A stretch of 64,000 nucleotides of DNA, taken from NCBI GenBank assembly GCA_003134685.1, contig PLCA01000007.1, positions 1 through 64,000 on the forward strand. Reading direction: 5' to 3'. Source of the stretch: Gemmatimonadota bacterium (GTDB taxonomy: Bacteria; Gemmatimonadota; Gemmatimonadetes; Gemmatimonadales; Gemmatimonadaceae). The notes below the pieces were generated by a model that did no database searches, was not told where the DNA came from, and saw only the letters and a list, made by a program, of their open reading frames with translations. The translations under genes were made by a program, and so were the position numbers. This document shows, in pieces, positions 61,950-63,791 of this stretch (position 1 is its first letter; every line of letters begins with the position of its first letter).

Positions 61950-62165
61950 GAAATACGGAGCGTGTGTGACGGGCTAACGTCTAGGTTCAACCTGTAAGCA
62001 CACTACCTCATTGCGGCGAAGTCGTAATGAACTTTTCGGGTCTGGCGATAACGCGGATTGCGAGAGTCTACCTGAAATGCTGCCTAGTACTGCGTACACA
62101 TACTTTCGTCGCACACTCAAAGGGTTGAAGAAGTGTATGTGGGAGAATAGCTTGCGAAGCTCTCT

Positions 62166-62254
62166 GGAGAGATGGCCGAGAGGCTGAAGGCACCGGTTTG
62201 CTAAACCGGCATACGTGGAAACGCGTATCGAGGGTTCGAATCCCTCTCTCTCCG
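62166..62254 (+). tRNA. tRNA-Ser(GCU)
   Basis: An 89-nt class II tRNA. The acceptor pairs GGAGAGA with TCTCTCC (discriminator G), the D-arm has GCCGAGAGGCTGAAGGC, and the anticodon stem CCGGT/ACCGG encloses loop TTGCTAA, anticodon GCU. The long variable arm (ATACGTGGAAACGCGTAT) and T-arm GAGGG-TTCGAAT-CCCTC follow. CCA is not encoded. Confidence 0.95.
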
Positions 62255-62258
62255 CTCG

Positions 62259-62291
62259 GCGGGTCCGCGCATCCAGTGTGGGCCCGCTTTT
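62259..62291 (+). terminator. Terminator of tRNA-Ser(GCU)
   Basis: GCGGGTCC pairs with GGGCCCGC (one G-U) around a 13-nt loop and is followed by TTTT. It begins 5 nt past the tRNA end and separates it from gltX. Confidence 0.65.
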
Positions 62292-62301
62292 CATTCTCGA
62301 G

Positions 62302-62362
62302 TCGCTGATGACAACAGGCACCAGACCCAGATCGAATCGCTGATGACAACGGGAACTAGACC
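62302..62362 (+). repeat. Imperfect 35-nt tandem duplication covering the gltX start
   Basis: TCGCTGATGACAAC appears at 62302 and again at 62337, offset by 35 nt. The similarity continues for about 26 nt with three mismatches. The first copy carries a start codon that lies out of frame with gltX, so the duplication creates a short ORF ahead of the real gene. Confidence 0.8.
62308..62343 (+). CDS. Upstream ORF overlapping the gltX start, 11 aa
   Basis: From the first duplicated ATG, MTTGTRPRSNR is encoded and ends in TGA at 62341-62343. The gltX ATG begins at 62343, so the two share one base in a TGATG context, typical of translational coupling. The first six residues are identical to those of gltX. 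This may be a leader that influences gltX translation or merely a by-product of the duplication. Confidence 0.4.
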   Translation: MTTGTRPRSNR

Positions 62363-63791
62363 ACGGCTCCGCTTCGCTCCCTCGCCGACCGGATATCTCC
62401 ACGTCGGAGGAGCGCGCACGGCGCTCTTCAATTGGCTCTACGCGCGCAAGTTCGGCGGAGAGTTCCTGCTCCGCATAGAGGACACGGACAAGGCGCGGAG
62501 CACCGACGAGAGCACGCGCGCGATCTTCGAAGGGATGGAGTGGCTCGGCCTGCTTTGGGACGATGGCGTCGTCTATCAGGGTGCGAACCTCGAGCGCCAT
62601 CAGGCGGATGCCAAAAAACTCCTCGACAGCGGAGCTGCCTATCGTTGCTTCTGTACTCCGGCCGAGCTCGACGCACGACGCCGCGAAGCGGAATCGCGCA
62701 AGGAGGCGTTCAAGTACGATCGTCGCTGCGAGCGCCTGCCCCGGGACGAGGTAGAACGCAGAGTCGCTGCAGGCGAGCCGTACGTAGTGCGCTTCCGCGT
62801 CCCCGAAGGCACGACGGAGTGGGACGACATGGTCCACGAGCGGATCGCGTTCCCGAACAAGGACATCGAGGACTTCGTCATTCTCCGCTCGGACGGGACG
62901 CCGATCTACAACCTCGCGGTCGTGTCCGACGACATCGCGATGGGAATCACCATCGTGATGCGCGGCGACGACCACATCTCCAACACGCCCAAACAGATTT
63001 TGCTCTACCGCGCGCTCGGCGCCTCGCTACCGACGTTCGCGCACCTGCCGATGATTCACGGGCTCGACGGAAAAAAGCTGAGCAAGCGGCACGGCGCGAC
63101 GGCCGTCGGAGATTACCAGCACTACGGGCTTCTTCCCGGCGCGTTGCTGAACTTCCTCGCGCTTCTCGGCTGGTCGCCGGGCGGTGATCGCGAGATCATG
63201 ACAGTTCCCGAGATGATCGAGCTCTTCAGCGTCGATGGCCTCCAGAAAAAGGCGGCGATCTTCGACCCTCAAAAGCTCGAATGGATGAATGGCCAGCACC
63301 TCTCGATGATTCCGCTCGAAGAGCTGGAGCTGCGCGTCACGCCCGCGATCGTGACGGCGCGTCTTGCTACCGAAGAAGAGCTGGTGGAGAGGCGCGATTG
63401 GTATTTCCGGTTGCTCGATCTCCTGCGCGTCCGCTCGCGCACGATCGACGACATCGTGCGCCAGGCCGGCCCCTATTTCCTCGAAAACATCGAATACGAT
63501 CCGGTCGCCGTCGCCAAGAACTGGAAGGATCCGGTCGAGGCGACCGCGCTGCTGCGCGCCACACGGGAGGCTCTCGCACAAGTCTCCGACTGGCAAACGG
63601 AGCCCCTCGAGACTGCTCTCCGATCGCTGGCCGAGTCGCACGGAATTTCGGCCGGAAAGGTCTTTCAGCCCCTCAGGGTGGCTTTAACCGGCCTTCCTGT
63701 GAGTCCCGGCATCTTCGAGATGCTGATTCAGATGGGGCGCGACCTGTCCCTAAACCGGATCGACAAAGCCCTGGCGGTCCTGGCCACGTAA
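62343..63791 (+). CDS. gltX: Glutamyl-tRNA synthetase
   Basis: A 482-aa class Ic synthetase. The HIGH-type motif FAPSPTGYLHVGGARTALFNW is at about residues 11-30, and the KMSKS-type loop KLSKRHGA is at about 245. RIEDTDKARSTDES and VMRGDDHISNTPKQILLYRAL are conserved catalytic segments. The C-terminal helical anticodon-binding region follows. It charges tRNA-Glu and may be non-discriminating. The ATG is the second copy in a tandem duplication and is overlapped by a short upstream ORF. No ribosome site is obvious next to it. Confidence 0.97.
   Translation: MTTGTRPRLRFAPSPTGYLHVGGARTALFNWLYARKFGGEFLLRIEDTDKARSTDESTRAIFEGMEWLGLLWDDGVVYQGANLERHQADAKKLLDSGAAYRCFCTPAELDARRREAESRKEAFKYDRRCERLPRDEVERRVAAGEPYVVRFRVPEGTTEWDDMVHERIAFPNKDIEDFVILRSDGTPIYNLAVVSDDIAMGITIVMRGDDHISNTPKQILLYRALGASLPTFAHLPMIHGLDGKKLSKRHGATAVGDYQHYGLLPGALLNFLALLGWSPGGDREIMTVPEMIELFSVDGLQKKAAIFDPQKLEWMNGQHLSMIPLEELELRVTPAIVTARLATEEELVERRDWYFRLLDLLRVRSRTIDDIVRQAGPYFLENIEYDPVAVAKNWKDPVEATALLRATREALAQVSDWQTEPLETALRSLAESHGISAGKVFQPLRVALTGLPVSPGIFEMLIQMGRDLSLNRIDKALAVLAT

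Follow-up and report, generated by a model that had tools for sequence, protein, structure and literature searches.

Organization of the gltX locus

The DNA analysed here, a stretch of 64,000 nucleotides (the window), belongs to a soil-dwelling member of the Gemmatimonadaceae, whose genome (G000, 3.63 Mb) is related to Gemmatimonadaceae MAGs. On its forward strand, a tRNA-Ser gene with anticodon GCU (62166–62255; found by ARAGORN and matched by Rfam RF00005 with 59.8 bits) is followed by an intrinsic-terminator-like hairpin with 13 pairs, a 5-nt loop and a T-rich tail (62258–62288; located by scan and folding) and by gltX, which encodes a glutamyl-tRNA synthetase of 482 aa (62343–63791; homologues at 63–97% identity). 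This layout is widely conserved. The tRNA-Ser(GCU) gene lies immediately 5′ of gltX at 71 of 78 loci of the family, and the tRNA–gltX order recurs in 16 of the 19 genomes sampled from two other families of the same bacterial order. A hairpin of at least 7 pairs with a T-rich tail is present between the two genes in 57 of 69 distinct family spacers, often ending 15–30 nt before gltX. A scan of positions 61950–62450 with a sigma-70 model, which may not suit this phylum, yielded no promoter for gltX. The conserved succession of tRNA, hairpin and gltX suggests that gltX is probably transcribed, at least partly, by terminator read-through from the tRNA-Ser unit. This gene order is a more general feature than the duplication of the gltX start to which we now turn.

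The start region of gltX contains a direct repeat, TCGCTGATGACAAC, at position 62302 and a second time at 62337, that is, with the offset of 35 nt that had been noticed in an earlier note on this DNA. In its full ungapped extent the repeat measures 31 nt with 87% identity (27/31; 62297–62327 and 62332–62362). With ungapped scoring of +1 per match and −2 per mismatch, it reaches a score of 19, compared with best scores of 10–15 per window in 20 Markov-simulated windows of 64 kb. Given this score and the occurrence of the same repeat in a sister species (see below), it is not a chance similarity. It was picked up by the ungapped scans and is absent from the output of Tandem Repeats Finder.

The first copy of the 35-nt unit (62297–62331), defined by the repeat scan together with the sister and outgroup sequences, corresponds to the ancestral gltX start region and includes an ATG codon at 62308 (ATG1). 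The second copy (62332–62366), defined by the repeat scan and comparison with relatives, holds the present gltX start at 62343 (ATG2). ATG1 opens an 11-codon upstream ORF (uORF), MTTGTRPRSNR (62308–62343), the TGA of which overlaps ATG2 by 1 nt, giving TGATG at 62341–62345. Both the peptide and the overlap had been read correctly in the earlier note. The N-terminus common to the two copies, for which six residues had been counted, in fact comprises eight (MTTGTRPR), and the arginines singled out near the end of the leader, although present, are merely those of the gltX N-terminus (R6 and R8) plus one read out of the junction (R11). Since no ATG, GTG or TTG lies in frame with gltX between the upstream stop at 62202 and ATG2, ATG2 is the sole start codon of these three types available to gltX.

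Comparison with related genomes

The gltX 5′ regions of relatives, the comparison of which the earlier note had proposed, differ in the number of starts. The MAG palsa_1244 (G014; L004, L033 and L134), a sister species and the closest relative with a sequenced genome, carries the same repeat with the same 35-nt spacing and the same TGATG overlap, together with substitutions of its own; its locus reads ...CTCGAGTCGCTG ATGACAACAGGCACCAAGCCCAGATCGAATCGCTG ATGACAACTGGCACTAGACCCCGG, and its uORF encodes MTTGTKPRSNR followed by a stop codon. The next relative, the MAG Chersky.7_28 (G002; L003, L032 and L135), has a single copy, CTCGAATCGCTG ATGACAACAGGCACCAGACCCAGGCTC. Three further congeners (G009, G010 and G011) have one gltX start each, and in another genome (G005) a run of N falls exactly at this site. 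In the codon-aligned gltX tree, the window sequence groups with palsa_1244 (support 100/99) and Chersky.7_28 branches next (100/99). Differences at fourfold sites of gltX amount to 0.18 between the window and palsa_1244, 0.30 between the window and Chersky.7_28 and 0.27 between palsa_1244 and Chersky.7_28. The two copies are arranged head to tail in the window, and the outgroup has no such pair at the equivalent site, as expected of a short tandem duplication. In a check for flanking microhomology, a mark of replication slippage, CTC was found to flank both sides in Chersky.7_28, and the junction CAGATCGAA is one base short of CTC.

The two copies have not changed to the same extent. Over ATGACAACAGGCACCAGACCCAG, the first copy in the window is identical to the single start of Chersky.7_28 (23/23), while the second copy shows 5 changes in 23 nt, all of them synonymous in gltX. 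In palsa_1244, the second copy has three changes from the Chersky.7_28 start, all silent, and the first copy has two, which replace Arg by Lys (R6K). The short leader differs from that of Chersky.7_28 at 2 of 52 sites in each carrier.

It would be tempting to read the purely synonymous differences between the two copies in the window as a sign of selection on the leader peptide. This inference was rejected, because the first copy equals the outgroup start and the changes sit in the second copy, which is the real and constrained beginning of gltX; the differences therefore reflect constraint on gltX rather than on the peptide. The five synonymous changes are in line with the fourfold-site divergence of 0.30. 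In the window lineage, the contrast of 0 versus 5 changes in 23 nt (Fisher about 0.05, hand-calculated) may give a faint hint that the nucleotides of the first copy are constrained, but the leader as a whole changes just as slowly, and in palsa_1244 the corresponding numbers are 2 versus 3. As the pace of the first copy is that of the remaining short leader, there is no evidence of selection on the peptide.

Signals for translation initiation

Neither ATG1 nor ATG2 is preceded by a Shine–Dalgarno (SD) motif. In the window genome, an SD-like 4-mer accompanies 24% of genes (crude gene calls), versus 12% at control positions. The start of gltX is weakly structured: of all gene starts, 96% show as much structure as the 70 nt around ATG2 or more, and the segment 62295–62400 folds less stably than all 200 of its shuffled versions (z +2.7). 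Weak structure at the start is expected where initiation proceeds without an SD motif (PMC5397173).

The TGATG overlap in the window and in palsa_1244 has the geometry of translationally coupled gene pairs. Overlaps of stop and start codons couple translation in Haloferax volcanii and Escherichia coli (PMC6728339), and coupling between the uORF and gltX through TGATG, with ATG1 in the ancestral start context, is plausible. As in the pairs described there, the uORF ends on the start of the next gene on the same strand; unlike them, it is not a gene but an 11-codon, cut-off copy of the gltX start, it has no internal SD motif, and its coupling is predicted from sequence. A short first cistron ahead of a second start is likewise found in synthetic bicistronic designs that use a short leader peptide (for example PMC5995908 and PMC10367133), from which the present case differs in being natural, born of a duplication and devoid of an SD motif.

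Discussion

The presence of the same repeat with distinct substitutions in palsa_1244, the single copy in Chersky.7_28 and the support for the gltX tree argue for one tandem duplication in a recent ancestor rather than an assembly error. The suggestion of a recent slippage event made in the earlier note has thus held up in the form of a recent tandem duplication, shared with one sister species and missing from the outgroup and more distant congeners. We consider it quite probable that a single recent event of this kind, with ATG1 still in use, restart at ATG2 and a small, near-neutral effect on GltX, accounts for the locus. A unit of 35 nt, consisting of TCGAATCGCTG and the first 24 nt of gltX, would have been copied once, with a single G-to-A substitution where the copies join, and the downstream ATG2 would have taken over as the gltX start. 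Because 35 is not divisible by 3, ATG1 lost gltX and turned into the start of the 11-codon uORF. Since it keeps the ancestral context, ATG1 probably still initiates; ribosomes terminating at the TGA would then lie on ATG2 and may partly restart there, alongside direct initiation at ATG2, which is equally possible. The net effect on the level of GltX is probably small, and the duplication, carried by two genomes only, was probably an ordinary copying accident that is harmless or near-neutral. At most, the locus would offer a clean and datable example of the one-step birth of a bacterial uORF with a stop–start overlap, by duplication of a start region in a unit of a length not divisible by three.

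Alternatively, the duplication may be older, having arisen in the common ancestor of the window genome, palsa_1244 and Chersky.7_28, and been lost from the latter by deletion between the repeats. This scenario calls for a similar number of events and would accommodate one variable site, which reads TCGAG in the first copy of the window and in G010, and TCGAA in the second copy and in Chersky.7_28. However, the deletion would have had to leave exactly the second copy, and no trace of the repeat is seen in G009–G011, so that we regard an older origin as unlikely.

Less probable still is that the uORF is a selected leader cistron, which would recruit ribosomes, pass them to gltX by termination–reinitiation and thereby tune GltX, as a natural bicistronic design. 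The length and frame of the ORF and its TGATG overlap are kept in both carriers, the first copy of the unit has hardly changed since the split from Chersky.7_28, and the weak structure around ATG2 would suit such a role. Yet the carriers are two species only, one of which has acquired the non-synonymous R6K change, gltX of close relatives does without a leader ORF, neither start has an SD motif, and short ORFs overlap many gene starts of the same genome (see below). That the duplicated start already serves as a functional leader cistron feeding ribosomes into gltX, as a freshly born regulatory uORF, seems to us more doubtful again; if it were true, the birth of this uORF could be dated between sister species.

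In pheM–pheST, a synthetase gene is controlled by a leader-peptide attenuator, and the earlier note had likewise supposed that the present arrangement could attenuate gltX. A short ORF does lie directly 5′ of the aminoacyl-tRNA synthetase gene, as in pheM–pheST, and it holds AGA codons, which are rare in this genome (4.8 per 1000 codons). Unlike leaders of the pheM–pheST type, however, MTTGTRPRSNR has no codon for the cognate amino acid, neither Glu nor Gln, and no terminator–antiterminator follows it: scanning and folding revealed neither a terminator nor an alternative hairpin between the leader and gltX, the sole terminator-like hairpin precedes the leader, and the region folds less stably than its shuffled versions. 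The first AGA codon is merely copied from the gltX N-terminus, and close relatives have no leader ORF. Among matches passing the Rfam gathering score there was only the tRNA, and thus no T-box or other known cis-regulatory RNA, and the literature search on gltX leader ORFs returned nothing relevant. The supposition was therefore not upheld, and an amino-acid-responsive attenuator acting through stalling on the leader peptide is highly improbable. Hardly any weight can be given to an assembly artefact either: the compared genomes are MAGs and the palsa_1244 scaffold has a gap close by (nn at L134:161–162), but two separately assembled genomes have the repeat in common with distinct substitutions, and the two copies are not identical, as those of an assembly duplication would be.

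Short repeats and overlapping ORFs elsewhere in the genome

Taken alone, neither a short tandem duplication nor an overlapping short ORF is unusual in the window genome. A census of 1.18 Mb of this genome, sampled as stretches and searched for spacings of 12–120 nt, gave about 25 short tandem repeats in non-genic DNA or at gene edges; in 11 cases the spacing is 34–38 nt. Likewise, at 49 of 553 gene starts (crude gene calls) the start codon is overlapped by the stop of a short ATG ORF, in 9 cases as TGATG. The same genome also harbours a dispersed, mostly intergenic repeat with the core AACTGAACGGGATCCGAGATCTCAG, often in tandem copies 29–37 nt apart (L151:6060–6141, L151:18646–18746, L184:13817–13868, L181:11818–11877, L169:417–475 and L137:6590–6654); its core GGATCCGAGATCT does not occur in the window. 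The clustering of non-genic tandem duplications at 34–38 nt (11/25) is partly due to this dispersed family.
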